Notes under the pieces: generated by a model | Told to the model about the DNA's origin: nothing | Database searches by the model: none | The model's input: the letters and a program-made list of their open reading frames with translations, nothing else | IMG/VR virus record: IMGVR_UViG_3300032223_001668 | Coordinates: 1-21,178 of that record | DNA: 21,178 bases | Strand: one strand, 5' to 3' | From: a virus | Translations under genes and position numbers: made by a program | Part shown: in pieces, positions 1 to 20,664 of the stretch | Position numbering within the stretch: position 1 is the first letter of the stretch | Layout of the letters: every line of letters starts with the position of its first letter

Positions 1-3000
1 CACCCTGTGAACCAGTGTAGCCTTGAATACCTTGAGAACCAACATAGCCGGTATCACCCTGTGATCCTGAATAACCTAAACCGCCTCGGCTACCTGTATA
101 ACCTGTATCGCCTTGGCTGCCGATGTAACCGATATCACCTTGGCTACCTGTGTAACCCGTATTGCCTCTAGAACCGGTGTAACCTGTAGTGCCTTGGCTA
201 CCTGTATAACCATGCGAACCTGTATAACCTAGATCACCTCGTGAACCAACATATCCTGTATCACCTTGAGAACCGACATATCCTGTATCACCTTGGCTGC
301 CTGTATAACCGATATTACCTTGATTACCTTGGCTGCCTGTATAACCAATATCACCTTGTGAACCGGTATAACCAATATTACCTTGATTACCCTTTGAACC
401 AGTGTAGCCTTGTAGACCTCGGTCACCTTGAGAACCAGTATAACCTAGGTCACCCTTGGAACCAGTGTAACCTATAACACCTTGATTACCTTGGCTACCT
501 GTATAACCAATATTACCTTGAGAACCTGTATAGCCGATATTACCTTGATCACCTTGTGAACCTGTGTAACCTAGAGGTCCAATCTCGCCTTGTGAACCGG
601 TATAACCAATATTACCTTGATTGCCCTTTGAACCAGTATAACCCTGTAAACCTTGGTCACCCTGTGAGCCAACATATCCTGTATCACCTTGTGATCCTGT
701 ATAACCAGCTGAACCTGTGTAACCTCTTGAACCTGTATAGCCAATAGAACCAGTGTAACCAATAGAACCTGTGTAACCAACAAATGGAATTGGAGCTGAC
801 CAATCGCCACTGGTATTACTGTTCTTGATGTAAAGATTACCTGTGTCTGTAGCTAGGTATGAGAAACCTGTATTTTGTGTGTCGTATGTTCCTCTACCAG
901 CCAATAGACCGCTTGCATTAACAGAGAAAGCTGCGCCCGTATCACCCTTAGAACCAGTATAACCTAAAGAACCTGTGTAGCCTAATGTACCCTGTGTTCC
1001 TTGACTACCTGTATAACCAATTACACCTTGGCTGCCAGAATAACCGAGATCACCCTTAGAACCAGTATAGCCAATTACACCTTGAGAACCCTGACTGCCT
1101 GTATAACCAATATTACCAACATCACCTTTAGAGCCTGTATAGCCTGATGCTCCTTGATCACCCTTAGAACCAGTGTAACCTATTACACCTTGATTACCTT
1201 GTGAACCTGTATAACCAATATTACCTTGGCTGCCTGTGTAACCTATATTGCCTTGAGAGCCTTGAGAACCAGTATAACCAACAGCACCTTGAGAACCTTG
1301 GCTGCCTGTATAACCTATTACACCCTGACTACCTGTGTAGCCAATTACACCTTGCGTTCCTTGGCTACCTGTATAACCAATAACACCCTGTGCGCCTTGC
1401 GAACCTGTATAACCAGTTGTACCTTGCGCTCCTTGGCTACCTGTATAACCAGCTGAACCTGTGTAACCTCTTGAACCTGTATAACCAATTACACCCTGTG
1501 TGCCTTGAGCGCCTTGTGATCCTGTGTAACCAGCTGTACCTTGCGTTCCTTGGCTGCCTGTATAACCTGTATTGCCTTGTGCGCCTTGGCTACCTGTGTA
1601 ACCGATGTTACCCTGAGAACCCTGAGAACCGGTGTAACCAATACCACCCTGTGAACCTTGGCTACCTGTGTAACCTAAAGCACCTTGAGCGCCTTGCGAT
1701 CCTGTATAACCGGAAATACCTTGGTCACCCTTAGAGCCTGTATAACCTGTTGGCCCTTGAGAACCTTGAGAACCAGTATAACCGGCAATACCTTGTGTGC
1801 CCTGTGAACCTTGAGGTCCTGTACTACCGGTATATCCAATTATGCCTTGAGATCCTGTGTATCCTGTGTCACCCTTAGAGCCGGTGTAACCAGCAGAACC
1901 CTGTGAACCCTGTGAACCTTGGCTACCTGTGTAACCGATACCACCTTGAGAACCTTGACTGCCTGTATATCCTGCACTACCAGCAGAACCGGTATAACCT
2001 ACGAATGGAATTGGATCAGACCAATCACCACTTGTATTACTATTCTTTATGTAAAGATTGCCTGTGTCTGTTGCTAGATATGCAAAACCTTTTGGTTGAG
2101 CATCATATGTGCTTTTAGCTGATAGAAGACCAGAAGCATCCACAGCAAATGAGGCGCCAGTATCACCTTTAGAACCTGTATAACCGACCGAACCTGTATA
2201 TCCTTTTGAGCCGGTATATCCTTGGTCACCCTTAGAACCCGTATAGCCTAATGATCCTGCATAGCCAGTATCACCCTTAGAACCTGTATAACCAGTAACA
2301 CCAGCTGAACCTGTATAACCTCTAGAACCCTGTGAACCAGTATAACCTAGATCACCTGAAGGACCGACGCTACCTGTATATCCTATTGGTCCTAAATTGC
2401 CTTGAGTACCAGGCGCACCATTTGTACCTGCATCACCTTTAGAACCTGTGTAACCTGTTGTGCCTTGGCTGCCTGTATAACCGCGTGAACCTATGTAACC
2501 AGCGGCGCCCTGTGAGCCAGTGTATCCTCTTGATCCTGCATAACCGGTATCGCCTTGTGGTCCTTGACTGCCTTGTGAACCTGTATAACCTCTAGAACCT
2601 GTGTAGCCTGAACCTTTTGAGCCTGTATAACCAATATCACCCTGATCACCCTGACTACCTGTATAACCTAGATCACCTTGGCTACCTGTGTAACCAATGT
2701 CACCTTTAGAACCAGAATAGCCCATTGGGCCTCTATTGCCTGTAGGTCCTTGAGAACCTGAGTAGCCACGATCACCTTGTGATCCTGTATAGCCTCTAGA
2801 GCCTGTATAACCAATAGATCCTGTATAACCTATATTACCTTGAGTTCCCTGCGAACCTGTGTAACCTTTAGAACCTGTGTAACCTGCGGGACCAGGTGTT
2901 GTTGATGCCGATCCTGTATAGCCTGCTGAACCTGTGTAACCTTTAGAACCTACATATCCGCTGCCTGTAGAATCTGCCAACATAACAATGTCGTTGGCAG

Positions 3001-4052: not shown

Positions 4053-4357
4053 GTTCTACTTACAACTTTTACCTTCTTATTACCATCTTTTGGATTTAAA
4101 TCATTACCTTCAATCTCAGCATGTAAATCCATATGATCGTTAACCCAATTCTGAACCAAATTCACCACTTGAAGTTGTTCACCTGATGTTTGAGCTATCC
4201 ACCCATCATTTACACCAGGTGCACCACCTCCAGCTTCGCCAGTAACGGCACCAAGACCTCTCACACCACCATAAGAAGCAAAATTAGTTTCGTCTAACTT
4301 TTTTTTTTCGCCATTTCTATACCTTTGGCTCTCTTGGCTGCAATGCCTTTGAGCCAC
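4049..4357 (-). CDS. Small phage protein entered by GTG start or -1 slippage (102-codon frame)
   Basis: The open frame starts with GTG at 4357, but its first ~19 codons overlap the preceding gene and have no visible ribosome binding site. The convincing protein begins KKKLDETNFASYGGVRGLGA and continues through GEAGGGAPGVNDGW to QLQVVNLVQNWVNDHMDLHA. Just upstream, ATG at 4314 with AAAGG seven bases before it reads Met-Ala-Lys-Lys-Lys in the other frame, then meets a run of ten A. A -1 shift on that run gives MAKKKKLDETNFASYGG, the natural-looking N-terminus. Either the run is a programmed slip site or one base is miscounted. The protein is small, Gly-rich in the middle and probably virion-associated; the function is unknown. 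Its stop overlaps the next ATG (ATGA). Confidence 0.65.
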   Translation of the reverse strand: MAQRHCSQESQRYRNGEKKKLDETNFASYGGVRGLGAVTGEAGGGAPGVNDGWIAQTSGEQLQVVNLVQNWVNDHMDLHAEIEGNDLNPKDGNKKVKVVSRT

Positions 4358-6225
4358 TTAGATTCATCTTTAAAACTTTTGCGAGATTCTTTAGAACGAC
4401 CTGTATCAGCAGCTTCTCTATCGGATAATTCAGCCTGTCTTTCGGCAGACTTCTTATCAAATTCAGCCTTCTTGGTATATCTGGCCTTTAGCTTATTTGA
4501 AAGTTCTTGAATAACTTCTTCTTTGGTCAGCTTGTCAGTAGCCTTGGCAATACCTTCACGGCGCTTCCATGACTTCTTAAACATCTTGTCAGCGAAAGCA
4601 CTGTCTTTACGACCTTGCTGATAACCAGAATAATCTTGGTTCTTCTTACGGTTATCTTCTTCTTTGTTCGCTCTCTCAGCATAACGACCAGTTGCAGCAG
4701 ACTTAGTTGCTACATCGTGCGAAGCCTTCTTGATATATGAACCAAGTGTCTTCTTTGATAGTTCTTGAATGTTTTCTTCTTTCAAAGAACCTTTCATCTT
4801 CAAATATTCAGAAGCAGCAGTCTTTTTTTCAGATGCTTTATCTTTCTGTTTTTGAACGCGAGCTAGATAATCTTTACTATGTTCACCCTTTGATTCTGAT
4901 TTAGAAAGATCAGGAAGAACACGACCTTCTGGAAGATTTGACTTACCGTGCTTACCAAGTCTTGACTTGATTACACTGGCATTGGTCTTTTGATCCTGCT
5001 TATTAGCCACACCACTCTTAGTAACTCTCATTTTATTAGTTTTTGAAAGAACATTTGTGAGAGGATCTGACTTTGCCTTTTCTGCTGATCTAGTAGCAGG
5101 AGTTGATGGCTTACCGTAGGCTGCGCGTTCAGCATGTTCACCAGCCTTTTTACCATGCTTTTTTTCAATAGAGGCTTTAATTCTGTCACCTTGATCGTGA
5201 ACTTTATCGCCGTAGTTATAATCAGCATCAACATCTCTGGTCGCAGCATATGCTTTTATTTTAGTCTTTAGACTAATTTCATCAAGCTGTTCTTCTTCTT
5301 TTAGCTTACCAACTTCAGACTCAAGCCACTTCTTTCTAACGGCTCTTGTTAGAGTTGCATGTGCTGCGGCTGTCTTTGATGGCTTTTCAAGACGCTTCTT
5401 ATTTACCTTACCAACCAACTCGGCTGATAACTCATTGAGCTTTGACTGCTTATCATCCATTTGCTGCTCCGGTGAAAGGTTTAGTTCATTCAGTTTCTTG
5501 ATAACTTTAGCTGCGATAGCCATAGGTTGATTTGAACCAGGAGTAATCTTAGGGCCAGTCTCAGCACCAGCAAATCTCAAACCTGAGTGAACATTTTCGT
5601 CCTTATCAGAACTGCCGTCTTTTGGTTCATCACCTCTTTCAAGGTGAGCTTTCATCTTGTCTCTGTTTTCACCTTTCAACATATCAGGTGTATCAAAACC
5701 TGTAGCTATTACAGGCTGATTAGAGCCGGGGGTGTGTCTTGGTCCAGTTTCAGGCATAAATGGGTGGACATGATGACCTTCATGCTCCTCATTTAGCTCA
5801 TCTTCAAGATCAGATAGAACATCTTTCAATTCATCTTGATCTAAAATTTCGCAGAACACATCGAACATGCCGTTATCTGACATATTATATTCGAAGTAAA
5901 CTGTGAAATCTGATGGAGGAGTCGTTACGACTTGGCCGTCTTCTGTTTGACCAATCTTGACACCAAACTGGTTTACAGGGAACATTGCTGTTCCCGAATC
6001 ACCTTCTAGAAAGCTATGGCCTGGTAGAAAGATATGATAAGAAGCAAGTGTGCGTCTTATTCTTTCAAGAGCCACATATGGAGTTACGAACCTGCAACGA
6101 GTGGCGCTGGCAATAATACCATTGATATTATCTCGAACCGCACTATCACTTATATCAACGCTACCGCTCTTAACATTGGCGCTCTGAACAATTTCTTCTT
6201 TTATAAAGCTCTTAAACTTTTTCAT
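4294..6225 (-). CDS. Large Lys/Glu-rich probable internal head protein (643 aa)
   Basis: ATG 6225 has GAGGA seven bases upstream. Residues 1-10 (MKKFKSFIKE) resemble a T4 capsid-targeting peptide with an [I/L]xE cleavage site at residue 10. Residues ~15-145 form the one globular-looking domain (RDNINGIIASATRCRFVTPY, FLEGDSGTAMFPVNQFGVKI, VYFEYNMSDNGMFDVF), a conserved N-terminus I recall from T4-like marine phages. Then follow an acidic-to-His segment and a duplicated ETGP(R/K)xTPGSNQP motif (159-171, 222-234). Long charged helices follow, with [L/I]xE-[L/I]S modules at ~265, 314, 487 and 572. Composition suggests a DNA-binding or scaffold-like internal head protein. The C-terminus ends at an A10 run shared with the next gene. 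Confidence 0.8.
   Translation of the reverse strand: MKKFKSFIKEEIVQSANVKSGSVDISDSAVRDNINGIIASATRCRFVTPYVALERIRRTLASYHIFLPGHSFLEGDSGTAMFPVNQFGVKIGQTEDGQVVTTPPSDFTVYFEYNMSDNGMFDVFCEILDQDELKDVLSDLEDELNEEHEGHHVHPFMPETGPRHTPGSNQPVIATGFDTPDMLKGENRDKMKAHLERGDEPKDGSSDKDENVHSGLRFAGAETGPKITPGSNQPMAIAAKVIKKLNELNLSPEQQMDDKQSKLNELSAELVGKVNKKRLEKPSKTAAAHATLTRAVRKKWLESEVGKLKEEEQLDEISLKTKIKAYAATRDVDADYNYGDKVHDQGDRIKASIEKKHGKKAGEHAERAAYGKPSTPATRSAEKAKSDPLTNVLSKTNKMRVTKSGVANKQDQKTNASVIKSRLGKHGKSNLPEGRVLPDLSKSESKGEHSKDYLARVQKQKDKASEKKTAASEYLKMKGSLKEENIQELSKKTLGSYIKKASHDVATKSAATGRYAERANKEEDNRKKNQDYSGYQQGRKDSAFADKMFKKSWKRREGIAKATDKLTKEEVIQELSNKLKARYTKKAEFDKKSAERQAELSDREAADTGRSKESRKSFKDESKWLKGIAAKRAKGIEMAKKKS
4299..4308 (-). 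promoter_or_regulatory. A10 slippery run, candidate -1 frameshift site
   Basis: Ten consecutive A (minus strand) follow ATG-GCG at 4314-4309. In the frame of the 643-residue gene this reads AAA-AAA-AAA-AGT-TAG and stops. Shifted by -1 it reads AAA-AAG-TTA-GAC and enters the downstream conserved protein. A-AAA-AAA is a known type of slippery heptamer for bacterial ribosomes and polymerases. A homopolymer miscount in the assembly would look the same. Confidence 0.5.
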
Positions 6226-8795: not shown

Positions 8796-11705
8796 TTATT
8801 CCTCGCAATTCCATTTGCGAAGTGATTTATTGATTCTTGAATTTGGATCTCTTGCAGTCTTGGCTGAGGTTAGCTTAGACTTCATACCTTTCATGCGGCG
8901 ACAGAATGATAGCCTGCGATTTGCCTTCTTAGAACCAGGCTTTAGCTTTGAAGGTTTAGTAGTTACGGCCAGTGATAACTTTGAGCCAGGATGGTCTTTG
9001 CGATATGCGTTGATGCCTGTTCTATTCAGACCACCTTCTGGATTTTTACCTTCTTTGCGCTGCCATGCGGGTGTAGATTCATCCATATCTTGCTTGCCTG
9101 TTTTTGGAACAGTACCCATATCACGGCCGCCTGCGGCATCCCATGACTCACGAATTTCTGTGAATGTTTTGGTGTTGTCATCGTTCTTTGTGTAAAGACT
9201 ATCCAGCTTATTTGCAGTTTCATATAGCTTTTCTTCCGCTCTATCACCATACTTCTCAATGAAACGCTCTATTGTCTTTTCGTTGAGCATCCAGTTTTTA
9301 ATAGATTCGTTTAATGGTAGAGAATAGCCCATACCTAAACCACCTGGTGATCTAACAACACCGAATGTTGGTCCTATGCCAGAGTTACCAAACTCATAGC
9401 CATATGGTGGTGGAGCATCTTCTTCTACCTTCTTCTTCTTAACGAAGCGAACCTTTTTCTTTTCATACAAAGGATTTAAATGTGCTGTATCTTGACCAGG
9501 TGTGTCTTTCGCATATAGATTAGCAAGGTCTTTTGTACCTAGCTCTCTCTTATATGTGTTTGTTCTGTCTTCACCTTCAACGAATGTCTCGAAGGCCTCA
9601 TCGACAGGTACACAATTAGGTACTTCTTTGCCGTTTTTCTTTTTCTTACCAACCATTTGATAGCCCTTCCAGCATGGATCTGGGCCCTTCATTTTCTTTT
9701 CTTCAGCTACTTGTTGTTGCTGTGGCTTTGGTACTAATTTTCCGTTTTGTGTTAGATAGGTCACAGTATTTTTTCCTTTAATTGTTGTGCCCCAGCGACC
9801 AAAACCATAATATGTCAGACCAAGGCGTTTAGCCTGGGACATTTGATCAGGTGATGGTGCTTGAGAAACTTGTTGAGTGGCATCTTGGTCTGGTGGTAGA
9901 GGTGTGGTCTGCATAGCACCACGCTGAACTGCACCACTACCAAATGCTGTAGCTTTTGCCGGTGTAAATGATTGCATGTTACGCTTCTGCAATTCATTTT
10001 GTTGCCAACCTGCTGCTTTTTCATTATTGATAGGTTGACGAGCAACAAACTTCTTTGTCATCTTAAAGATATTTTGGAACTCACCTTTAACTTTCTTTAC
10101 AACTTCAGGCGAAGCTTTGCGTAGATCATTGCTGTTATCTACTGCGACAAAGTTTTCTTTACCAAATAGTTTTTGAAGAACAGGCATTGCGGCTTGGCAG
10201 GCATCCCACTTATCTTTACGGATGTCTTCTGGTACTGTTCTACCACCTTCATCACCGCGAGCGATGTTTCTTTCTTTCGATACTTTATCGGAGGTGTTGA
10301 CAAACACCATCATAGTATCGTAACCTAATTCTTCTAGTTCTTTCTTGATGCTGGCAATCTTTTCTGGATCATCTGCGGTGCCATTGATGATAACACCACG
10401 GCGACCTGATAGAGCAAGGCGTTCACGCTCTTTGGTTAGTTTCTTGGCTTTGCCGCGAGCAACATCACGCTCAACTCTTTCAGATTCAGGCATCTTAAAG
10501 TTAAGACCAGCCTTCTTCATCAAGAACTCAAAGGCCACATCTGAGTTGATTTCTTGCAGACCCATACCATCTAGTGTCTGCTTCATTACATAATCTTTGC
10601 CTGAACCAGGACCACCAGCTAGAAAGACAGCTTTAAATGTTCCTGGGTCATTGATGCCTTCTGTTAGGGTTTCTTCAACCACATATCCAGATTTAAACAT
10701 TTCAGGATTCTTTTTAGCAAACCAGCGCATGATCTTTCCGGCTTCTGCGTTTGCTTCATTTTCGAAGGGGCTTCCTGTTGAACCTTCATAGGAAATATCT
10801 TTACCAATGCGATCATCTTCTTTCTGTTTATGATGCACAAGTTCATGAGCCACAGTTCTGAATATGTCCATCGGATGTCTATTCTTAGAAACGACAACGA
10901 TAGAATGATCAGCTGGATTATAGCCACCAAAACTATTTGTCATATCTTTTTTAGATAGATGTATTTTAGGAGATTTCTTAATGCCTAGTTTATCAGAAGC
11001 AAATTGGGTAAAGCTGTCGAGCATAGGCCCAAACTTTTCATGATTTAATTCACCAATATCTGCAACAGCATCTTCTTTAATAGCTTTTACAGACTTTGGT
11101 TTTGGTGGCTCAGAAGAAGCCATTCTTATTTGATTATAGACCTTCTTCACATGTTTTTCTGGCATACCAGGATGATATGCTCTGAAACCTTCATAGTCAC
11201 CTGAACGAGCCAGTTTCTCAAGTTTAGTTGCGCTTACTGAACGCTCAAGCTCATCTCGACTCATCTTAGTAGGATGCTCACCACTATCTCCACGCTTACC
11301 TTCTACTTCATGGACTTTCCATCTTTTGAAGTTGAAGCCTACTTTACCATTCTTATCAGCTCTACCGTTCCATTGCTGGAGGGTTTTGCGATATTCAGGT
11401 GCGCGATCAGAACCAGCCACCAGATGCAGTTCATCATGGTGTTGACCGAGACTAGCAAGATATGAGAATAGATTAGATGTTTCTGGAGTGCCTGTCTCTA
11501 CTGGATGGCCAAATACCATCTCAGCATGGGCTTTCTTTGTTTCTGGAGTGAGGGGGTGTGATGTTCCAGATAGACCGATACGAAGTTGACCGCCTGTCTT
11601 TTTAGCGATACCTTGTGCAGTTTCTATTGCTTTTTTATGCCCAATGGTAGGTATTCTGACCTTACCATAGAACGCCACGCCAGGCGTTTTCTTCGAATTT
11701 TCCAT
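8796..11705 (-). CDS. Multi-domain fusion: nucleotidyltransferase, zinc peptidase, P-loop kinase, C-terminal WQRKEGKNP domain (969 aa)
   Basis: ATG 11705 follows AGGGGA. Domain 1 (~1-190): nucleotidyltransferase-like, GKVRIPTIGH (H23 of the T/HxGH motif), LVAGSDRAPEY and SVSATK (156-161). Domain 2 (~215-335): zincin, HELVH at 287-291 with a likely third ligand in FENEANA (E317). Domain 3 (~355-545): P-loop kinase, GGPGSGK (364-370, then D instead of S/T) and Arg-rich lid residues (KERNIARGDEGGRTVP), similar to polynucleotide kinase or zeta-type ATPases. Linker 550-870 has GLTYYGFGRWG and DPCWKGYQMVGKKKKNGKEV blocks known from other phages. The C-terminus (~877-967) has TPAWQRKEGKNPEGGLN, SFCRRMKGMK and TSAKTARDPNSRINKSLRKW, which I associate with the stand-alone DUF6321 family. 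Substrates are unknown. LNE sites at ~798 and 807 fit prohead-protease cleavage. Confidence 0.85.
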   Translation of the reverse strand: MENSKKTPGVAFYGKVRIPTIGHKKAIETAQGIAKKTGGQLRIGLSGTSHPLTPETKKAHAEMVFGHPVETGTPETSNLFSYLASLGQHHDELHLVAGSDRAPEYRKTLQQWNGRADKNGKVGFNFKRWKVHEVEGKRGDSGEHPTKMSRDELERSVSATKLEKLARSGDYEGFRAYHPGMPEKHVKKVYNQIRMASSEPPKPKSVKAIKEDAVADIGELNHEKFGPMLDSFTQFASDKLGIKKSPKIHLSKKDMTNSFGGYNPADHSIVVVSKNRHPMDIFRTVAHELVHHKQKEDDRIGKDISYEGSTGSPFENEANAEAGKIMRWFAKKNPEMFKSGYVVEETLTEGINDPGTFKAVFLAGGPGSGKDYVMKQTLDGMGLQEINSDVAFEFLMKKAGLNFKMPESERVERDVARGKAKKLTKERERLALSGRRGVIINGTADDPEKIASIKKELEELGYDTMMVFVNTSDKVSKERNIARGDEGGRTVPEDIRKDKWDACQAAMPVLQKLFGKENFVAVDNSNDLRKASPEVVKKVKGEFQNIFKMTKKFVARQPINNEKAAGWQQNELQKRNMQSFTPAKATAFGSGAVQRGAMQTTPLPPDQDATQQVSQAPSPDQMSQAKRLGLTYYGFGRWGTTIKGKNTVTYLTQNGKLVPKPQQQQVAEEKKMKGPDPCWKGYQMVGKKKKNGKEVPNCVPVDEAFETFVEGEDRTNTYKRELGTKDLANLYAKDTPGQDTAHLNPLYEKKKVRFVKKKKVEEDAPPPYGYEFGNSGIGPTFGVVRSPGGLGMGYSLPLNESIKNWMLNEKTIERFIEKYGDRAEEKLYETANKLDSLYTKNDDNTKTFTEIRESWDAAGGRDMGTVPKTGKQDMDESTPAWQRKEGKNPEGGLNRTGINAYRKDHPGSKLSLAVTTKPSKLKPGSKKANRRLSFCRRMKGMKSKLTSAKTARDPNSRINKSLRKWNCEE

Positions 11706-11717
11706 TAAATCCCCTCT

Positions 11718-11753
11718 ACAGGAATAGTATTACTTCTTATTTATAATTCCTGT
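11718..11753. repeat. Inverted repeat flanking the late promoter
   Basis: Arms 11718-11725 (acaggaat) and 11746-11753 (attcctgt) are perfect 8-base inverted repeats separated by 20 bases that contain TATAAATA. The layout would suit an operator or an mRNA-leader hairpin. Confidence 0.5.
11738..11745 (-). promoter_or_regulatory. T4-type late promoter TATAAATA
   Basis: This is a perfect match to the T4 late -10 octamer on the minus strand. It lies 33 bases before the ATG of the 969-residue fusion gene, in one of the few intergenic gaps. Confidence 0.6.
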
Positions 11754-11757
11754 TTCT

Positions 11758-12372
11758 TCATGACTTATACCTTGTGCTTTCACCTGTTTCTGGGTTGACC
11801 AGATAGGCTTCTATTTCGATCTCTGGGTGAATTTTACCCAGCTTCAGCAAAGTATCTAGATTACCAGCATGGTCATCCCACATTCTAATTCTCTTATACT
11901 TACCAGAATTGATATACTTACGGATCACCACAGCTTTCGTAACACTGACCTTGGCATCCGCCTTGAGCTTCTGTAGATTACCGGCGCGTTCAATATGTAC
12001 CTGATCGATGGGGAAATCATGGTCACGGAACTTCTGTAGGAAAGGTTCTTTATCGTAGAAGTCTGAACGGGCTGTAATGATGATGGTCTTACCCTGCTTG
12101 ACGGCCTGCCTGGCTCTTTCTAGCATCTTATCGATAGGCTGAGCAGCTTTACGAAAATGTTCACCTGATCTAAACTGATCGAAGTTAAATTCTTCACCAG
12201 GTTTTAGCTTATAGTGATTGAACTCACCTGAGCCAAGCGTCTTGATGGGTTTACCATCTTTCATGATGACAACAGAAGTCTTTGATCGAAACAAGGTGTC
12301 ATCAATATCAAAGATATTAAGAAGACCTTCAGCCTCTTTTGCTTCTGCTAGATATTCATAGAAACTTTTCAT
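11758..12372 (-). CDS. HAD-family phosphatase with capsid-targeting-like N-terminus (204 aa)
   Basis: The HAD core is clear: motif I FDIDDTL (nucleophile D22, acid D24), motif II T100 in IIITARSD, a basic residue near K146 or K152, and motif IV WDDHAGN (D166, D167). The family hydrolyses phosphoesters or phosphoanhydrides; relatives include the 3'-phosphatase half of T4 polynucleotide kinase. The cap region is small. Residues 1-11 (MKSFYEYLAEA) align almost residue for residue with the T4 internal-protein leader MKTYQEFIAEA, with LAE ending at residue 10, so the enzyme is probably packaged in the capsid and trimmed by the prohead protease (inference). The ATG overlaps the stop of the ligase-like gene by four bases (ATGA), implying coupled production. 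Confidence 0.85.
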   Translation of the reverse strand: MKSFYEYLAEAKEAEGLLNIFDIDDTLFRSKTSVVIMKDGKPIKTLGSGEFNHYKLKPGEEFNFDQFRSGEHFRKAAQPIDKMLERARQAVKQGKTIIITARSDFYDKEPFLQKFRDHDFPIDQVHIERAGNLQKLKADAKVSVTKAVVIRKYINSGKYKRIRMWDDHAGNLDTLLKLGKIHPEIEIEAYLVNPETGESTRYKS

Positions 12373-13604
12373 TTGTCCCAGTTCTTTGTTGCATTGAAGT
12401 TTGTCTGTGAAAACTCTAATTGGTCAATAAGTTTGACCGCATTACCTTTAATTGTATCGACTGCCACAAAACCTTCGGGAGCCGTGACTTGATAGCCGCT
12501 GTCGGTTCTCTTAAATGTTCCTACAACACCTTTGACTTGCTCAAGCTTACGAACAATCATCAGCTTCGCATCGATGATGAGGTTCTGTAGATCGAAGATT
12601 TTCTTCAATTCATCTTTATTCTGCTTATACCATGTGAGAACGATTGTCTTTTCTTTTTGTCTCTTTAGCTTGGTGTCTTCTTTCTTAGCTTCAGCAATGC
12701 TTGCATTAAGTTTGCTTTCTACAGTAGAAATAAGACCTTGAACATGTGCAGAAGTGTTTGTTACCTTCTGACCTTCTCTAACCTTTAGATTATTCCATGC
12801 TTTGATTTGTACCTTATAGGTATCATTGACTGATATTTCATTTAGCGTTCTTGATGAAATATTTCTAAGGGTGCTACCAATCTGTGTCAGTATAGCATTT
12901 AGAGCCTGAGTTTCTTGCTCTGTAAATGTGGCCGTGCCTGTAGCATCAACAAACGAAGCATCTCTGAACCAGACATCTCTAGTCTGTTTCAGATGGCCTA
13001 TGTCAACACCAAAAGAGGCTTGCATATCTTCTAGCTTATCACCAATATAAGATGTATGCCATACAATACCCATCTTTGCATTTAGTATTTGCTTGGCTAA
13101 TCCTGAATCCGCAGGTACAGCATAGACTACAGTATTTGGTTGGAATATGATATATTCTATTCCATCTATAGTTTCTCTCTTGAGGTCTTCGCTGGTGAAC
13201 ATCATATCACCTTGAATGACACCAGTAATTCCTAGTGTTTTTAGATATCTCAAGGCAATCTTCAGCTTCTTATTCAGACCTTCACCTGGATGATTAGCAT
13301 CAATGTCAGCATCAGTGTAATTGAGTTTGGCGTTCTTGGCAAATACACCTTTTGTTCCGATAAAGAATTTACCATTCTCTGGATTAATACCTGCGAATAC
13401 GGCTGGTGCACCATCCCATTTGGTTGAAAGATTCACTCTTGCTGTCTTAGCATGACCAGCAAGCATGTCACGAAGAGACTGTAAGAAATTAATAGCTCCG
13501 CGTGTGCCTGCGACACCGCCGTTCAGAACTTCATCCTGAATGTGTTCGAGATGTAGGTTCTTACCCTGCTTATCTTCTCTAAGGAAACTTTTAAATTCTA
13601 TCAT
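12369..13604 (-). CDS. KxDG nucleotidyltransferase/ligase-like protein, probable capsid cargo (411 aa)
   Basis: I chose ATG 13604, in a TAATG overlap with the upstream stop, over an ATG four codons earlier because it gives MIEFKSFLRE, a leader like those of two neighbours. The protein matches a family I recall as DUF6267 in cyanophages. Motifs in order fit the covalent nucleotidyltransferase (DNA/RNA ligase, capping) fold: KWDG at 62-65 (motif I), GVIQGDMM at 128-135 (motif III-like), EGFV at 377-380 (motif IV-like), and VKLID at 390-394 (motif V-like). A long helical insert (230-345) separates motifs III and IV and contains LNE-IS at 254-258. The reaction is unproven; it may join or adenylate RNA or DNA ends. 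It is coupled to the HAD phosphatase. Confidence 0.8.
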   Translation of the reverse strand: MIEFKSFLREDKQGKNLHLEHIQDEVLNGGVAGTRGAINFLQSLRDMLAGHAKTARVNLSTKWDGAPAVFAGINPENGKFFIGTKGVFAKNAKLNYTDADIDANHPGEGLNKKLKIALRYLKTLGITGVIQGDMMFTSEDLKRETIDGIEYIIFQPNTVVYAVPADSGLAKQILNAKMGIVWHTSYIGDKLEDMQASFGVDIGHLKQTRDVWFRDASFVDATGTATFTEQETQALNAILTQIGSTLRNISSRTLNEISVNDTYKVQIKAWNNLKVREGQKVTNTSAHVQGLISTVESKLNASIAEAKKEDTKLKRQKEKTIVLTWYKQNKDELKKIFDLQNLIIDAKLMIVRKLEQVKGVVGTFKRTDSGYQVTAPEGFVAVDTIKGNAVKLIDQLEFSQTNFNATKNWDK

Positions 13605-14542
13605 TACTCTATCCATTCCGTGACTGCTCTAGATGCTCTTGGTTGTATAACAAATCGCGCACCTTTAAGCCCAAATTGGCTTCTATCACCTTTGTATATT
13701 GCCATCAATACTGGTTCATAATCACCAGTGATAGCTTCACCATTTTCTAGAACATGCTCTGAGGTCATTTCATAGGCCAAAGAACCATCTTTCTTGAGTT
13801 TGATATCGCCTTGTAGAACGATACTAACATTTTGCCTACCTAGATTTCTATTTGCGATGCTGAAATTGACACCATAGACCGCATACTTTTTCAATTTGGC
13901 ATCTTTGATTTTCTTGGCTATTGTTGTGGCGTTTGGCATAACAGTACCAAACTTTTTCTGTAGCTGTTGAATGAAGGTCTGAACTTCAGGATGATTTTGA
14001 ATTACATCTTCTGTCATACCACTCCATTGCTGGAAGTCTTTAGCTCTTGTACCCATCTTATATGATAACCAAACAACTTCATTACCACCATCATCTAGCA
14101 ATGCAAGGTCTGATTTTGGTGTTCCTTCCACCTTTACGCATTTTGTGACCGTATAAGAATGTTGAGCGACCTTAATCTTGACAGACTTCTTACCAGTTTT
14201 ACCCATTATCTCAGCTAGTTGCTGATTGATATTCATAGCAGTTCTCATTTCGGCGTCGATACCGGCGGCACCCTTTGCAGGTTTACCGCCAAACTCTTCG
14301 CTTTTCATGAAGCTGTTTATCTTATATGTCTTACTCTTAACCTTCGAGTCTTTAAAAACAAGCTTTCTATAATCATCTTGCTTTTTCTTTTTAAGAGTTT
14401 TTAATGTCTCATCATCATAAGCCAATACTACCTTCGTGCCACTCATAAGGGTAAGAGGTTCTTTACCTTCATACATGCTTATGAATTTATCTACACGCCA
14501 GGCGTATTTGAAAAGCTCAGGGACCGAAAGTGTTGTAGCCAT
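13604..14542 (-). CDS. Conserved phage protein upstream of the ligase-like gene (312 aa)
   Basis: I chose ATG 14542 (MATTLSVPELFKYAW) because AAAAGG lies nine bases upstream; an ATG two codons earlier is only three bases from it. No named family is certain. The central part reads GTPKSDLALLDDGGNEVVWL then SYKMGTRAKDFQQWSG, a block I recall in proteins of T4-like marine phages, usually beside the ligase-like gene. D145 with SYK (160-162) vaguely recalls a PD-(D/E)xK nuclease but lacks the acidic residue before K. N-terminal Lys-rich helix 45-80. It may be a partner of the downstream enzymes. Stop overlaps the next ATG (TAATG). Confidence 0.7.
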   Translation of the reverse strand: MATTLSVPELFKYAWRVDKFISMYEGKEPLTLMSGTKVVLAYDDETLKTLKKKKQDDYRKLVFKDSKVKSKTYKINSFMKSEEFGGKPAKGAAGIDAEMRTAMNINQQLAEIMGKTGKKSVKIKVAQHSYTVTKCVKVEGTPKSDLALLDDGGNEVVWLSYKMGTRAKDFQQWSGMTEDVIQNHPEVQTFIQQLQKKFGTVMPNATTIAKKIKDAKLKKYAVYGVNFSIANRNLGRQNVSIVLQGDIKLKKDGSLAYEMTSEHVLENGEAITGDYEPVLMAIYKGDRSQFGLKGARFVIQPRASRAVTEWIE

Positions 14543-14576
14543 TATCATATACCTTTTTTAGGTATTTAGCATATAA

Positions 14577-14602
14577 TAAAAAAGCTCCCGAAGGAGCTTT
14601 TA
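14577..14602 (-). terminator. Intrinsic terminator with C(UUCG)G loop
   Basis: A 9-bp stem (14580-14588 with 14593-14601) encloses UUCG closed by C-G, and is followed by a run of six U (14583-14578) and an AU-rich tail on the minus strand. It overlaps the stop codon of the Dps gene. It ends the accessory and tRNA transcription unit before the enzyme block. Confidence 0.85.
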
Positions 14603-15043
14603 AGACTTTTGGTTGGCAGTAGCCTTGAGCATCCATCGGTGCTTCTTATGAGCCATCATTCGGTCTTGAAGGAAATTAGATAGACCATATTGCTCTGCGG
14701 TTTCAGCCAGCTTATAAGCTTCAACCAGTGAAGTGATTACGGTTTCATTTGCGTCGATTAGATTTGTGATCATCTTTGTGGCCACAGGAATCTTATCATC
14801 TTCGTCTACCTTCGATAGTTCTTTCATGCGCTGGAGTGTGCCAGGTGAAAAAGAATCGAGTTGACGAATCTGTTCTGCTATATCATCTACTGCACCATGA
14901 ACTTCTTCATAAAGATCACCGAAGAACTCGTGATACTGTGGGAAATCTGAACCAATTACATTCCAATGATAGCCGTGTGCCTTGATATAGAATGTGAAAG
15001 AGTTGGCTAGAACCTCTTTCATCTTTTCTACGAGTTCTTCCAT
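14600..15043 (-). CDS. dps: Dps-family ferritin (147 aa)
   Basis: The length and four-helix pattern fit Dps, which forms a hollow dodecamer that oxidises and stores iron and protects DNA from peroxide. The inter-subunit ferroxidase residues are intact: H26 (in GYHWNV), H38, D53 and E57, with the spacing 12, 15 and 4 seen in Dps enzymes. The N-terminus is short (MEELVEKMKEVL), without the Lys-rich DNA-binding tail of E. coli Dps. ATG 15043 follows AGGAGAGAG. It overlaps the zinc-protein gene by 16 bases and is followed by a strong terminator. Phage-encoded Dps is uncommon; it might protect injected or replicating DNA, or the host, from oxidative damage. Confidence 0.9.
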   Translation of the reverse strand: MEELVEKMKEVLANSFTFYIKAHGYHWNVIGSDFPQYHEFFGDLYEEVHGAVDDIAEQIRQLDSFSPGTLQRMKELSKVDEDDKIPVATKMITNLIDANETVITSLVEAYKLAETAEQYGLSNFLQDRMMAHKKHRWMLKATANQKS

Positions 15044-17272: not shown

Positions 17273-17358
17273 TGGCGGAGCGTATTGGAGTCGAACCAAT
17301 TGAACCCGAAGGTCCTACGGTTTAGCAAACCGCTGCATTACCGTCCTGCCCACGCTCC
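17273..17358 (-). tRNA. tRNA-Ser (anticodon GCU), CCA encoded
   Basis: Acceptor GGAGCGT pairs with ACGCTCC, followed by G73 and CCA. The anticodon loop is TTGCTAA. A class II variable arm (GGACC-UUCG-GGUUC) confirms serine type; the T arm is ATTGG-TTCGACT-CCAAT. It reads AGC and AGU. Position 8 is G rather than the usual U. Its first base is the G of the TAG stop of the upstream oxygenase. Confidence 0.92.
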
Positions 17359-17942
17359 TATGTATATTCAACCCAACCTGTCAATATATATTTCACATTG
17401 CTGATTGGTGGATTGCCTCTGTGTGTATGTGTGAAACCTGCTGGCCAAAGCAATAATCTGCCAGCCTTAGGCTTCACTCTTTTTGGATAATACAGAAACT
17501 CCGTTTCACCACCTTCTTCAACATCATTCAGATAAAGAATGAAAGTCATCAATCTACGCATATTTTGAGGTGTATCATCTTCATGATGCCAAACATGATA
17601 GCCACCACCAACCTGAGTTTCTTGAACCTTCATCAATCTAATTGTATGGGCCGCATCTGTATTCAATATACTAAACTTTTTTGCATAAGCTGGATATGAA
17701 TATTCCCAAAATCTTCTGGTGAATAGACCGAAAGGTTCGAGAGAATCCAAATCCAACTCTTGAACAGTTCCCATTACACCGTTGACATATAGCTGATCAT
17801 CATCTTTTTGATGTGACGCGCTGCCTTGGTCATGCCTTGATAGTGTGAGACCCATAGACTTAAATCTATGGTATACATCTATCATATAGTCACAACTCTC
17901 TTGGCTAAAAAAGTCATCTTGTATGAGAACAAAATCATTCAT
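17358..17942 (-). CDS. 2OG-Fe(II) oxygenase, prolyl-4-hydroxylase type (194 aa)
   Basis: This is a double-stranded beta-helix dioxygenase using 2-oxoglutarate, O2 and Fe(II). The metal triad is visible as H120-E-D122 (YHVWHHEDD) and H174 (THTHRGNPP), and K184 in VKYILTGWVEY should bind 2-oxoglutarate. Supporting blocks are MTFILYLNDVEEGGETEF and AGRLLLWPAG. Length matches bacterial and phage P4H-like proteins, common in T4-like marine phages, whose substrate may be a protein or nucleic acid. Because a collagen-like fibre lies in the window, proline or lysine hydroxylation comes to mind, but the visible repeats contain little proline. ATG overlaps the RNase H-like stop (ATGA). The TAG stop uses tRNA-Ser base 1. 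Confidence 0.9.
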   Translation of the reverse strand: MNDFVLIQDDFFSQESCDYMIDVYHRFKSMGLTLSRHDQGSASHQKDDDQLYVNGVMGTVQELDLDSLEPFGLFTRRFWEYSYPAYAKKFSILNTDAAHTIRLMKVQETQVGGGYHVWHHEDDTPQNMRRLMTFILYLNDVEEGGETEFLYYPKRVKPKAGRLLLWPAGFTHTHRGNPPISNVKYILTGWVEYT

Positions 17943-18421
17943 GCAGTTAAAATCTCCTTGAGTCTGTCAGCAGCATAAGAGGCCGCAAATGCTTCTGGTT
18001 TGACCTTTGGTGCGAAACCACACATGCCACGAATGTAGCCAGTAGCCTGTTGAATAACGCATGACGAACCGTGCATTTCATCTGGATTAATATCCAGGTG
18101 GACTTCACAATGACGATCACCAATAGCTTCAATCAAATCAAGATACATCTGCGATGCACGATATACTTCATTCATTAGGCGGACGGCTGGGCGATCATGA
18201 CGCTTATCATAATCACGCTCCGTATCTACTTTTCCGAAGACACGACAACCTCTAGAAGAATCCATATGAATAACAACGGCAACTGTATAGTCAGCATACC
18301 ACTGATCATCCCTACCGCGGTAACGCTCACTATCTGCTCCAATATAGATGGAGGTGGAAGGCGAAGAACTGCGGATAAATTCAACCACTTCATTCAGATC
18401 AAACTTTCTGTTCACTTTCAT
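17939..18421 (-). CDS. YkuK-type RNase H-like protein (160 aa)
   Basis: The pattern SIYIGADSERYR (D30), YTVAVVIHMDSSRGCRVF, RLMNEVYRASQMYLDLIEAI, EVHLDINPD (D110), and GFAPKVKPEAFAASYAADR fits the RNase H-like fold of Bacillus YkuK (DUF458, PF04308). Acidic residues D30, E85 and D110 occupy plausible metal positions. The biological role of the family is unclear; nuclease activity is an inference. The start lies 12 bases after the 3' end of tRNA-His, with AGAAGAG nearby. Coupled to the downstream oxygenase by ATGA. Confidence 0.8.
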   Translation of the reverse strand: MKVNRKFDLNEVVEFIRSSSPSTSIYIGADSERYRGRDDQWYADYTVAVVIHMDSSRGCRVFGKVDTERDYDKRHDRPAVRLMNEVYRASQMYLDLIEAIGDRHCEVHLDINPDEMHGSSCVIQQATGYIRGMCGFAPKVKPEAFAASYAADRLKEILTA

Positions 18422-18433
18422 TCTCTTCTATTT

Positions 18434-18509
18434 TGGTACTGCCTCCAGGGTTCTAACCTGAACTCCGAGAACCACAACCTCGGGTGCTTAACAATTACAC
18501 TAAGGCAGC
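18434..18509 (-). tRNA. tRNA-His (GUG), A73 and no G-1, CCA encoded
   Basis: Acceptor GCTGCCT pairs with AGGCAGT (G1-U72 wobble), followed by A73 and CCA. D stem GTGT/GCAC; anticodon stem CGAGG/TCTCG around TTGTGGT; T arm TCAGG-TTAGAAC-CCTGG. Base -1 is T, so no G-1 is encoded, and base 73 is A instead of C. Position 19 is U and position 56 is A in place of G19 and C56. The first ten bases overlap the end of the amidotransferase-like gene. Confidence 0.88.
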
Positions 18510-19156
18510 ATTAACTTGTCAACAAATTCTAGCAACCACTTGTGGTGTCTACCTTGGTGCCAGTGGTTCTTTATGTATGGATACATGTTGTACCATAGCA
18601 TTTCACTCTCTGGATGGCAACCTATGATACCAACATTGTTCTGTATCAGAGCCATAGGATCACCATTTCTATATCTAGCTTGTACCTGGTATGTAGCACG
18701 AATATCAGTCAAAACTACAGCACCACCATCATAAAAGAACATTTTATCTTTGCTGAAATCACTCTCGTAGGTTATCTCAGCGATAGTTCCGTATGATCTT
18801 TTAATTTCTGCTGTCGGTCTTTTGATGTATTGTGTGACATCAATACCTTCGAGGATATCAAAGTAATTGGATCCAGCCCAATACTGTCCCATACATATAC
18901 CAAGGTACTTTCCCCCGTCGGATACGAAATCAGCAATGGCATTACCATGACGCCGCTTGAAGAACTTGTAGTATGAGTCCGAGTCACCTATACCTCCAGG
19001 AAAGGCCACACAATCAGATTGTGAAAGCACATAATTTAAATCGTCAGCTATACTGAAAACTTTAACATGATAGTGTGGTGATAGCGCCGTTATCATACCT
19101 GATACGCATTGATCAGAACATTCAGGATGATGACTAAACAATGCTATCGTTTTCAT
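18500..19156 (-). CDS. Class I glutamine-amidotransferase-like protein (218 aa)
   Basis: I chose ATG 19156 (MKTIALFSHHPECSDQCVSG); a GTG two codons earlier is possible, and neither has a strong ribosome binding site. The nucleophile elbow LGICMG (Cys88 from this start) and GCHPES (His181, Glu183) supply the Cys-His-Glu triad of class I amidotransferases. FPGGIGDSDSYYKFF and GKYLGICMGQYWAGS resemble the biotin-protein-ligase N-terminal-like (BPL_N) subgroup. The ammonia acceptor is unknown. It could also act as a stand-alone amidase or peptidase. The TAG stop is made of tRNA-His bases 8-10. Confidence 0.82.
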   Translation of the reverse strand: MKTIALFSHHPECSDQCVSGMITALSPHYHVKVFSIADDLNYVLSQSDCVAFPGGIGDSDSYYKFFKRRHGNAIADFVSDGGKYLGICMGQYWAGSNYFDILEGIDVTQYIKRPTAEIKRSYGTIAEITYESDFSKDKMFFYDGGAVVLTDIRATYQVQARYRNGDPMALIQNNVGIIGCHPESEMLWYNMYPYIKNHWHQGRHHKWLLEFVDKLMLP

Positions 19157-19181
19157 AAACACACCGATTTGTATTCTCGAC

Positions 19182-19189
19182 TATTTATG
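19182..19189 (-). promoter_or_regulatory. Candidate late promoter (CATAAATA)
   Basis: Seven of eight bases match TATAAATA, in the 34-base gap between a tRNA 3' end and the amidotransferase-like gene. It lies 26 bases before the ATG. Confidence 0.4.
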
Positions 19190-19190
19190 A

Positions 19191-19267
19191 TGGTGCCCAT
19201 GGAGGGATTCGAACCCCCAACATGCGGAGTTTGAAGCCGCTACCTCTACCATTTGGATCACATGGGC
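19191..19267 (-). tRNA. tRNA with CAA at the anticodon position (isotype uncertain), CCA encoded
   Basis: Acceptor GCCCATG/CATGGGC, A73, CCA; T arm GGGGG-TTCGAAT-CCCTC; five-base variable loop ATGTT. Counting fixes the anticodon stem as GCGGC/TCCGC with a C-U mismatch and the loop as TTCAAAC, giving CAA (leucine UUG). If the loop is taken one base earlier (CTTCAAA) the anticodon is UCA, which would read UGA. The short variable loop is wrong for a bacterial tRNA-Leu. The D stem is only about three pairs. Confidence 0.75.
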
Positions 19268-19274
19268 GGGAAAT

Positions 19275-19351
19275 TGGTGCCCCAAGTCAGATTCGAACTG
19301 ACAACCTACGGTTTCTAAGACCGGCACCTCTACCAATTGGGCTACTGGGGC
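19275..19351 (-). tRNA. tRNA with UAG anticodon (leucine codon CUA, short variable loop), CCA encoded
   Basis: Acceptor GCCCCAG/TTGGGGC, A73, CCA; D loop AATTGGTAG; anticodon stem CCGGT/ACCGT with loop CTTAGAA, giving UAG; variable loop AGGTT; T arm GTCAG-TTCGAAT-CTGAC. UAG reads CUA (Leu), yet the class II arm of bacterial tRNA-Leu is absent. It lies seven bases from the next tRNA. Its bases 8-10 are the TAG stop of the small membrane-protein gene. Confidence 0.8.
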
Positions 19352-19476
19352 GAAAGAGTAACTAAGAATCCTAAAAATGTCAATACGATGATAGGCATCC
19401 AGAAAAGATATGCTAAGACCATACTCGTATGATAGTAGCCCATCACCTTTCTGTAAACTTTGGTTGATATTGACAT
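19342..19476 (-). CDS. Small single-span membrane protein (44 aa)
   Basis: ATG 19476 follows AGGAAG at good spacing, giving MSISTKVYRKVMGYYHTSMV; a longer frame from 19536 would run through tRNA-Ala and is rejected. Residues ~18-40 (VLAYLFWMPIIVLTFLGFLV) form one membrane helix after a basic N-terminus, so the N-terminus should face the cytoplasm. No family is recognised. Small holin-like or accessory membrane peptides have this shape, but nothing specific supports that role. The stop lies ten bases inside the following tRNA. Confidence 0.6.
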   Translation of the reverse strand: MSISTKVYRKVMGYYHTSMVLAYLFWMPIIVLTFLGFLVTLSPQ

Positions 19477-19492
19477 TTTACTTCCTGAAATA

Positions 19493-19568
19493 TGGTGGAG
19501 GTAGACGGGATCGAACCGCCGACATATTGCTTGCAAAGCAATCGCTCTCCCAACTGAGCTATACCCCC
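19493..19568 (-). tRNA. tRNA-Ala (UGC), CCA encoded
   Basis: Acceptor GGGGGTA/TACCTCC contains the G3-U70 pair that marks alanine tRNAs. The anticodon stem ATTGC/GCAAT encloses TTTGCAA. A73 and CCA are encoded. Its first base is the G of the TAG stop of the upstream membrane-protein gene. Confidence 0.96.
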
Positions 19569-19819
19569 TAAAACACTTGATAATGATTAATCAGACCACT
19601 AATGTATATAGCAACAGCCATCAACTCAATTATGATTAATGACCATTTTTTCCACAAATAGCCTACAATTAACCAACCTGCATTACCTACTAAAGAAAAC
19701 CAAACACCTAACGGGTAAACATTATATGCGGTCATAAGAATACCAACCATCAGAATAGCGGTTGATATCCATTCGAGCCAAACATCATAGCCCGTAATAA
19801 GCTTCTTGTTTTCTTTCAT
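19568..19819 (-). CDS. Small two- to three-span membrane protein (about 83 aa)
   Basis: The likely start is ATG 19819 (MKENKKLITGYDVWLEWIST); an ATG at 19861 is also open but overlaps the upstream gene more. Hydrophobic segments are TAILMVGILMTAYNVYPLGV, FSLVGNAGWLIVGYLW, and LIIIELMAVAIYISGLI. The NVYPLG and GNAGWL...W motifs fit a small phage and bacterial membrane family I recall as DUF6552; its role is unknown. The gene overlaps the end of the 114-residue gene, and its TAG stop ends on tRNA-Ala base 1. Confidence 0.7.
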   Translation of the reverse strand: MKENKKLITGYDVWLEWISTAILMVGILMTAYNVYPLGVWFSLVGNAGWLIVGYLWKKWSLIIIELMAVAIYISGLINHYQVF

Positions 19820-20129
19820 ATTCTTTAGCAACAGATAAAGCCTGTTCCTCTGTATAATCATTTATCCGACTCTCTTCATATACTGAAGACAGTTGAGTGT
19901 TAGCTTCTTCATCGGTATTGACGGTATAATAATGCACAACCGGTCTATCCGAATCGCTAACATAAATTTCGATCTTTATGATGACCTTCTGTTTCGCAAA
20001 AGCTTTGAAATGTGATACATCTCTATACCAAACTTCATCTTCAAATCTGAGTTCTTCTTTCTCATATACTTCATAGCAACGAGGAACCCAAAATTTATGG
20101 CCAACATTATATTTTGTAGGAATAATCAC
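19785..20129 (-). CDS. Phage protein of unknown function (114 aa, GTG start)
   Basis: The start is GTG 20129 in a four-base overlap (GTGA) with the stop of the AdoMet-decarboxylase-like gene. The N-terminal part (YNVGHKFWVPRCYEVYEKEE, KQKVIIKIEIYVSDSDRPVV, HYYTVNTDEEANTQ) resembles small phage proteins that predict as a beta-barrel of SH3-like type, followed by an acidic helical tail (TEEQALSVAKEYERKQEAYY). No catalytic motif. Function not known. Confidence 0.7.
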   Translation of the reverse strand: MIIPTKYNVGHKFWVPRCYEVYEKEELRFEDEVWYRDVSHFKAFAKQKVIIKIEIYVSDSDRPVVHYYTVNTDEEANTQLSSVYEESRINDYTEEQALSVAKEYERKQEAYYGL

Positions 20130-20491
20130 GCTTGTCTCGTTAGATAGTTAGGTCTCACATACTTGGCACCAAAAAACTCTTTTACCAATCTGATAACGAC
20201 CTGATCATCATATTCTTTGCAAGAGAAAACATCAAGATACATTGCGTTACCACCCATACCATCATCAGGCACGAAGTGTGCAACAATATTTGAAGTCTCA
20301 ATCAACTGCACAAGAGTATAGCCAGCCTTATTGCCAGAACCAAAGTTTACAATCTGTGGTTCACCATAAGCAACCATGTCAATCTCTTGAACAAGACGCT
20401 TGACGAAATTATAAATGGTATTCTCACTGGTAATGCAAGCATGATCCAGTTCAGCACAATCCAACAGAAGATGATAACCCCAATATGCCAT
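20126..20491 (-). CDS. S-adenosylmethionine decarboxylase-like pyruvoyl protein (121 aa)
   Basis: ATG 20491 is preceded by AGGA. The layout WGYHLLLDCAELDH, LVQLIETSNIVAHFVPDD and YLDVFSC matches class 1b AdoMet decarboxylase (SpeD/SpeH). The self-cleaving serine (S67), proton-donor histidine (H72) and catalytic cysteine (C91) are all present. The usual Glu-Ser-His at the cleavage site is Thr-Ser-Asn here, and four residues are inserted between H72 and C91. Canonical enzymes make the aminopropyl donor for spermidine, which condenses DNA; some relatives decarboxylate arginine or ornithine instead. So the substrate is open. Phage copies are known in T4-like marine phages (recall). Confidence 0.8.
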   Translation of the reverse strand: MAYWGYHLLLDCAELDHACITSENTIYNFVKRLVQEIDMVAYGEPQIVNFGSGNKAGYTLVQLIETSNIVAHFVPDDGMGGNAMYLDVFSCKEYDDQVVIRLVKEFFGAKYVRPNYLTRQA

Positions 20492-20512
20492 TTCTATAGT
20501 TCCTAATAAGAG

Positions 20513-20584
20513 TGGAGCGGATGCTGGAATTAAACCAGTCTTGCGATATGGAAGACCGCTGTGCTGTCGTTACACTAAGTCCGC
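20513..20584 (-). tRNA. tRNA-Gly (UCC), degenerate structure, CCA encoded
   Basis: Glycine identity bases are present: G1-C72, C2-G71, U73 and C35-C36 (anticodon UCC in loop CTTCCAT). D stem GTGT/GCAC, D loop AACGACA, anticodon stem GCGGT/ATCGC. Only five acceptor pairs form cleanly (6-67 and 7-66 mismatch), and the T stem CTGG/CCAG has four pairs around TTTAATT. Position 19 is A and 56 is U. Length 72 bases. May be functional but weakened. Confidence 0.75.
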
Positions 20585-20590
20585 ATAGTT

Positions 20591-20664
20591 TGGAGCGGGG
20601 ATCGGGAATCGAACCCGAACGATCACCTTGGCAAGGTGACAGGCTACCACTACATCACCCCCGC
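20591..20664 (-). tRNA. tRNA-Gly (GCC), CCA encoded
   Basis: Acceptor GCGGGGG/TCCCCGC, U73 and CCA; anticodon stem TCACC/GGTGA around TTGCCAA (GCC); T arm CGGG(T)-type stem with TTCGATT loop. It reads GGC and GGU, the main glycine codons of the collagen-like gene. It is six bases from the second glycine tRNA. Confidence 0.95.

Follow-up and report, generated by a model that had tools for sequence, protein, structure and literature searches.

The locus around the gene for the DUF6267 protein, in the fragment of viral DNA studied here, is best read as encoding a set of enzymes for nucleic-acid ends that the virion delivers. The window, by which we mean the whole 21,178-base fragment of an IMG/VR virus record, carries all the genes discussed on its minus strand, and they are transcribed in the order 314-amino-acid (aa) restriction-enzyme-like protein, DUF6267 protein, HAD phosphatase (204 aa) and a 969-aa fusion that contains a kinase. 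Several of these proteins bear the sorting tags and cleavage sites of proteins packed into the phage head, so the phage may deliver a small set of enzymes that cut and mend nucleic acids along with its DNA. The interpretation we favour, while rating it at a little under an even chance, is that the proteins are packaged in the head as cargo and, once injected, at once cut, heal and seal the ends of nucleic acids. For the features below, the analysis computed domain assignments, the conservation of motifs and cleavage sites, and the coupling of genes.

13604..14548, minus strand: 314-aa type II restriction endonuclease/nickase-like protein (PADLOC REase_II, E=5.5e-11).
14057..14119, minus strand: its PxxD...SxK core, residues 144-164, with S162-x-K164 on strand E157-164.
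12369..13604, minus strand: DUF6267 protein, 411 aa, predicted covalent nucleotidyltransferase/ligase (Pfam PF19782, E=1.4e-103; motif order; AlphaFold2 (AF2) model).
13575..13604, minus strand: DUF6267 leader MIEFKSFLRE↓D, capsid-targeting-like, with an L/I-x-E end (pattern match; disordered in the AF2 model).
13410..13421, minus strand: motif I, K66-W-D-G, with the candidate nucleotidylated lysine; K66, D68 and G69 invariant, K66 ending strand E61-66.
13206..13214, minus strand: motif III-like Q135-G-D137, invariant, on strand E133-141.
12465..12476, minus strand: motif IV, E381-G-F-V384; E381, G382 and V384 invariant, strand E382-387.
12432..12434, minus strand: motif V lysine K395 (VKL..xxFSxxNF), invariant, strand E393-396.
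11758..12372, minus strand: 204-aa HAD phosphatase (phrog_415 'polynucleotide kinase', E=8.5e-8; catalytic residues).
12343..12372, minus strand: HAD leader MKSFYEYLAE↓A (pattern match).
8796..11705, minus strand: 969-aa multidomain (polyvalent-like) protein (domain matches).
11118..11705, minus strand: its cytidyltransferase-like domain, residues 1-196 (phrog_3041, E=5.8e-21; phrog_395, E=1.5e-9).
10746..10973, minus strand: zincin-like region with HELVH at residues 287-291 (weak DUF6782/M78 and phrog_87 matches, HExxH).
10656..10667, minus strand: predicted prohead-protease site LTE↓G, residues 347-350, at the kinase boundary.
9978..10658, minus strand: P-loop (Pnk/zeta-toxin-like) kinase, residues 350-576, lysine K370 (Zeta_toxin, AAA_33, hhalign).
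8811..9050, minus strand: DUF6321 basic C-terminal domain, residues 886-965 (E=2.2e-14).

The original prediction, made from the letters of the window, placed three consecutive genes here and proposed that they form a packaged end-repair set; on the minus strand these genes occupy 13616-12369, 12372-11758 and 11705-8796. Their coordinates and order stand, and the grouping is not a matter of chance, because it recurs in related contigs; the interpretation fared less well than the observation and survives in part. The first of the three open reading frames (ORFs) is 415 aa long, its likely start being M5 at 13604, which gives 411 residues. Its stop overlaps the start of the HAD gene as ATGA, bearing out the translational coupling that had been proposed for these two genes. 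Likewise, the stop of the 314-aa gene overlaps the DUF6267 start as TAATG, and the fusion begins about 50 nt after the HAD gene.

PHROG 455 and Pfam DUF6267, the families to which the 411/415-aa protein belongs, are both without an assigned function; DUF6267 also goes by the label T4-GC71. Motifs and predicted topology make it quite probable that the protein has covalent nucleotidyltransferase, ligase-like chemistry. Invariance of its motif positions was judged over 53 diverse relatives. The composite pattern K.DG..G[DE]h..EG.h..hKh occurs in 298/303 relatives, as against 0/1,520 other ORFs (of at least 200 aa) and 20/15,150 shuffles, and again in each of 27 further full-length relatives from genome contigs, at 33-48% identity. 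The AF2 model (predicted local distance difference test, pLDDT, 87.9; predicted template modelling score, pTM, 0.84) places K66 at a strand end, with the DG turn and another strand after it, and the other motifs on strands, an arrangement expected of a nucleotidyltransferase fold. A helical insertion at about residues 233-359 separates motifs III and IV. In a Foldseek search of BFVD, the significant matches were DUF6267-like proteins only, named or unnamed; matches to LSD1 in the PDB profile search were set aside as coiled-coil noise. Of 50,697 phage records, 465 encode DUF6267, and marine viral contigs with it number in the hundreds; a restriction to phage contigs is not supported, most of the genome matches being on contigs of metagenome-assembled genomes.

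What points to the phage head is a set of short signals. The T4 protease gp21 cleaves after L/I-X-E, and leaders of 10 residues are enough for packaging (PMC9026906). The capsid-targeting-like leaders first noticed on the ligase-like and HAD proteins both fit the pattern M..F..[FY][LI]xE, which we find in 146/302 DUF6267 proteins, 15/40 HAD proteins and 61/246 upstream proteins, compared with 40/1,934 other ORFs; Fisher p-values for these counts overstate independence, because related sequences are counted. A slightly stricter pattern occurs at just 21 of 14,591 internal methionines. The protease sites make these signals stronger than that first reading of the window allowed, L/I-x-E standing ahead of both DUF6267 and the kinase across the family. 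Immediately before the DUF6267 domain the motif stands in 124 of 127 distinct leaders, against 7.8% of interior 16-mers, spelled by 20 or more different tripeptides, and [L/I]xE↓G precedes the kinase in 72/72 kinase ORFs, one of them read by eye because the pattern missed it. The kinase site occurs both in standalone proteins (MERFIIKE↓GLYDPG) and within fusions (LTE↓GINDPG in the window). Fixed first and third positions, a free middle, a domain border and unrelated contexts are what protease specificity would leave behind. In addition, purified virions of S-SM1 contained the cytidyltransferase T4-GC190 (PMC3037559). The T4-GC190 gene adjoins DUF6267 in S-SM1 and corresponds to the cytidyltransferase part fused to DUF6267 in S-PM2; phrog_3041 and phrog_395, matched by the N-terminus of the window fusion, are also families of T4-GC190, making that N-terminus its homolog.

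Other proteins carry similar signals. A 643-aa protein at window 4294-6225 has a leader that fits perfectly (MKKFKSFIKE↓E), contains EELSxxTLxxYxKKA-type repeats, and is a candidate for another head cargo or core protein. Two short motifs, CWKGYQMVGKKKKNGKEVPNCVP and LTxxYxxDTPGQ, are common to otherwise different cargo-like proteins (window 8796-11705 and loci L107, L119, L217 and L086); the second is also found at HAD C-termini and in a small HTVC008M gene between DUF6267 and the kinase. Both motifs may serve as tags for core binding or for processing.

The most constant partner of DUF6267 is a variable restriction-endonuclease-like gene, which lay outside the stretch covered by the original prediction. 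Among 24 relatives of the 314-aa protein, PADLOC recognised REase_II in 13 (best 4.8e-18) and 'nicking endonuclease' in 7. P144, D147, S162 and K164 are invariant and E100 is near-invariant, and the AF2 model (pLDDT 93.2) has an alpha-beta-beta-beta core. The nearest solved structures are RecU, YaeQ, Hjc and DrdV, none of them significant (E=0.7 or worse); all four are PD-(D/E)XK proteins. In relatives, the slot beside DUF6267 is filled by many families that BLAST does not group, most with a conserved PxxD...(S/E)xK. Conservation of D..[SED]xK at the 90% level was found in 8 of 13 testable upstream families versus 5 of 45 others (p=0.0005), and at least two of these five control families directly adjoin DUF6267. 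PADLOC gave no convincing match for the other upstream families, so that their nuclease nature rests on conservation of PxxD..(S/E)xK. The nuclease-like slot was seen again at independent genome loci. At loci L045, L227, L255 and L241 the upstream neighbour is not nuclease-like, and a PxxD..(S/E)xK protein lies directly downstream or one gene further. Nothing in the locus is as unusual as this pairing of a constant ligase-like protein with an interchangeable nuclease.

Downstream of DUF6267 lie the enzymes proposed to heal ends. The HAD phosphatase call is confirmed, all catalytic residues (D22, D24, T26, T100, R102, K146, D166 and D167; DxDxT/TAR/K/DD) being present and invariant in 20 relatives. 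Its profile found no match in PDB; hhalign against the T4 Pnk phosphatase gave a probability of 23%, where controls reached no more than about 1%; this only hints at a relation. The P-loop kinase domain predicted within the fusion is likewise there: residues 355-514 match Zeta_toxin (E=2e-12; 47.4 bits against a Pfam gathering cut-off of 22.3) and AAA_33 (E=1.1e-9), and no antitoxin was recognised adjacent to it. The likeness to T4 Pnkp that had been proposed holds for the profile alignment (hhalign probability 96%, E=3.7e-9) and for part of the active site, where the kinase has retained its P-loop lysine, NSD base and RNxxR..VP lid and where equivalents of T4 Pnk K15, D35 and R126 are in place, but not for the rest, as set out below. 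A 5'-OH polynucleotide kinase is a possible identity.

We counted how far this set extends over 87 non-redundant loci whose downstream sequence runs for 4 kb or more. A HAD gene follows DUF6267 in 18 of them, a kinase in 18 and a cytidyltransferase in 58. Kinase, HAD and DUF6267 occur together in 8 of the 87, and this count rules the trio out as a universal module; the set is one clade's elaboration of a more widespread DUF6267 cargo locus.

From these data we infer what the enzymes do and act on, how they work together, and that this phage packages and injects them, as follows. The leaders M..F..[FY][LI]xE would direct the DUF6267 and HAD proteins into the prohead core, where a gp21-like protease would remove them after L/I-x-E and would also cleave the 969-aa polyprotein at LTE↓G, releasing the kinase. 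In a new host, the restriction-endonuclease/nickase-like protein would introduce breaks, the kinase and HAD phosphatase would regenerate 5'-phosphate and 3'-OH ends, and DUF6267 would seal these through a lysine-66-nucleotide intermediate. The target could be DNA of the host or of a rival, or the phage's own genome after a cut by host defence. We favour DNA ends over RNA as the substrate, since the gene that constantly adjoins DUF6267 resembles those of type II restriction enzymes, and rate them at least as likely as tRNA. Of the interpretation first proposed, the end-enzyme domains, motifs and packaging signals find support, and a joint end-repair role is conjecture; nothing favours tRNA over DNA, and the trio is not general.

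Several observations weigh against this reading. Motif III of DUF6267 has D, not E. Foldseek of the DUF6267 model against PDB returned nothing significant (T4 DNA ligase, the sole ligase near the top of the list, ranked fourth at E=1.6), hhalign with T4 Rnl1, Rnl2 and gp30 gave probabilities of at most 1.3%, and phmmer and hmmsearch of PDB with the full protein and with an insertion-free core alignment found no significant match. The KxDG nucleotidyltransferase-like call thus keeps its motifs at invariant positions but lacks a significant fold or profile match to any ligase, and the structure-prediction check proposed with it gave a confident model with motifs on strands but no significant Foldseek or hhalign result. 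In the kinases of the window clade GKD replaces GK[ST] (S16 to D), and the equivalents of T4 Pnk R38 and D85 are lost. The HAD leader is absent from the nearest HAD clade, the 314-aa protein of the window has no clear leader, and the trio is restricted to one clade.

Three other explanations were weighed. The strongest, which we consider unlikely but a serious contender, is that these are independent injected effectors that have packaging signals in common and form no pathway: a zeta-toxin-like kinase, an unrelated HAD phosphatase, a DUF6267 protein that nucleotidylates proteins or small molecules, and a nuclease aimed at host or rival DNA. Cargo signals are indeed common to unrelated proteins, Zeta_toxin is the top Pfam match of the kinase, gene content around DUF6267 is mosaic, and polyvalent proteins join unrelated early effectors (PMC5512222); the start/stop overlap, the fixed DUF6267-HAD-kinase order in the window clade and the coupled upstream gene speak for joint action instead. 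Less likely still is a virion-delivered RNA (tRNA) repair kit, in line with the original prediction: the kinase, the HAD phosphatase and the ligase would restore tRNAs that anticodon nucleases of the host have cleaved. T4 Pnkp and Rnl1 supply the same three activities, motif V (VKLVDRLEFSxxNF) resembles IKCKNSKF of Rnl2, EGYV matches both Rnl1 and Rnl2, the phage has tRNA genes, and jumbo phages combine RNA ligases with HAD phosphatases and kinases (PMC7824862). However, the trio is uncommon whereas the restriction-enzyme-like neighbour recurs widely, hhalign relates DUF6267 to neither Rnl1 nor Rnl2, and the kinase active site is changed. That these are replication/recombination accessory genes expressed in the infected cell, with incidental leaders, is improbable: the locus adjoins polymerase, uvsX and gp41 genes in cyanophages and pelagiphages, yet its L/I-x-E sites keep their place at domain borders while the middle residue varies, and T4-GC190 is found in virions (PMC3037559).

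The locus with its proposed end-enzyme set is a variant of known themes, namely T4 Pnkp/ligase repair in its chemistry, capsid-targeted internal proteins in its delivery and polyvalent proteins in its fused architecture, and it belongs fully to none of these systems. With T4 Pnkp (PseT) it shares a profile-related P-loop kinase and a HAD domain with DxDxT, a motif II arginine (SGR/TAR) and DD; T4 Pnkp, however, is one polypeptide, whereas here two genes are involved, the kinase is buried in the 969-aa fusion, and its P-loop and active site differ. T4 Rnl1 and Rnl2 and ATP-dependent DNA ligases have KxDG, GD, EGxV and hKh in the same order on strands, but DUF6267 differs by its long helical insertion, its motif III aspartate and the missing profile or fold match. 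The T4 internal proteins (IPI-III, Alt) have a similar short leader with aromatics near positions 4 and 7 and an L/I-x-E motif, whereas the cargo here would consist of putative end-processing enzymes. Phage polyvalent proteins (Iyer et al. 2017, PMC5512222) combine several enzymatic domains with an HExxH zincin, as the 969-aa protein may do, its cytidyltransferase-like and kinase matches being significant and its zincin region showing weak family matches plus HELVH; it adds those two domains and a conserved, predicted prohead-protease site. Type II restriction endonucleases and nickases share the significant REase_II match and the PxxD...SxK core; here, in contrast, the 314-aa gene is paired with a ligase-like gene, and no methyltransferase was recognised among the window genes scanned. 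Finally, Rnl2 ligases fused to HNH nucleases (PMC7824862) also combine nuclease and ligase in phages, whereas here a separate, interchangeable PD-(D/E)XK-like gene accompanies a different ligase-like family.

In a search of phage records with the 415-aa protein, the best relatives came from Kyanoviridae and other T4-like phages, among them Methylophilales phage Melnitz, phage C48C1, Stenotrophomonas phage DLP_6, pelagiphage HTVC008M and many cyanophages; we take the source to be a marine, T4-like, Kyanoviridae-related phage. Directly upstream of the nuclease-like gene, at window 14600-15043, is a Dps/ferritin-like protein (Ferritin E=3.5e-24; phrog_3636). Seven tRNA genes (Ser, His, two Leu, Ala, two Gly) are interspersed with small genes at 17273-20664, a region that also encodes a BPL_N protein (biotin-protein-ligase N-terminal-like, amidotransferase-like; 18500-19162) and an S-adenosylmethionine decarboxylase (AdoMet_dc E=2.8e-17; 20126-20491), a polyamine-synthesis gene in a phage. 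At the other end, window 1-2900 is dense in tandem repeats of 18, 27 and 36 bases, which on the minus strand spell collagen-like GYTGSQG repeats and probably belong to a fibre gene truncated where the contig stops.

DUF6267 may represent a new virion-carried ligase family that T4-like marine phages pair with an interchangeable restriction-endonuclease/nickase slot, a proposal we put forward tentatively, as possible rather than likely. If true, such phages would inject a cut-and-seal module whose nuclease is swapped between phages while the sealing enzyme is kept. T4-type capsid targeting would then deliver nucleic-acid repair and cleavage enzymes, beyond the inhibitors and ADP-ribosyltransferases. 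The predictions on lysine 66, the exact cleavage sites and the swapping nuclease would make an unexplained cyanophage neighbourhood an assayable injected system.

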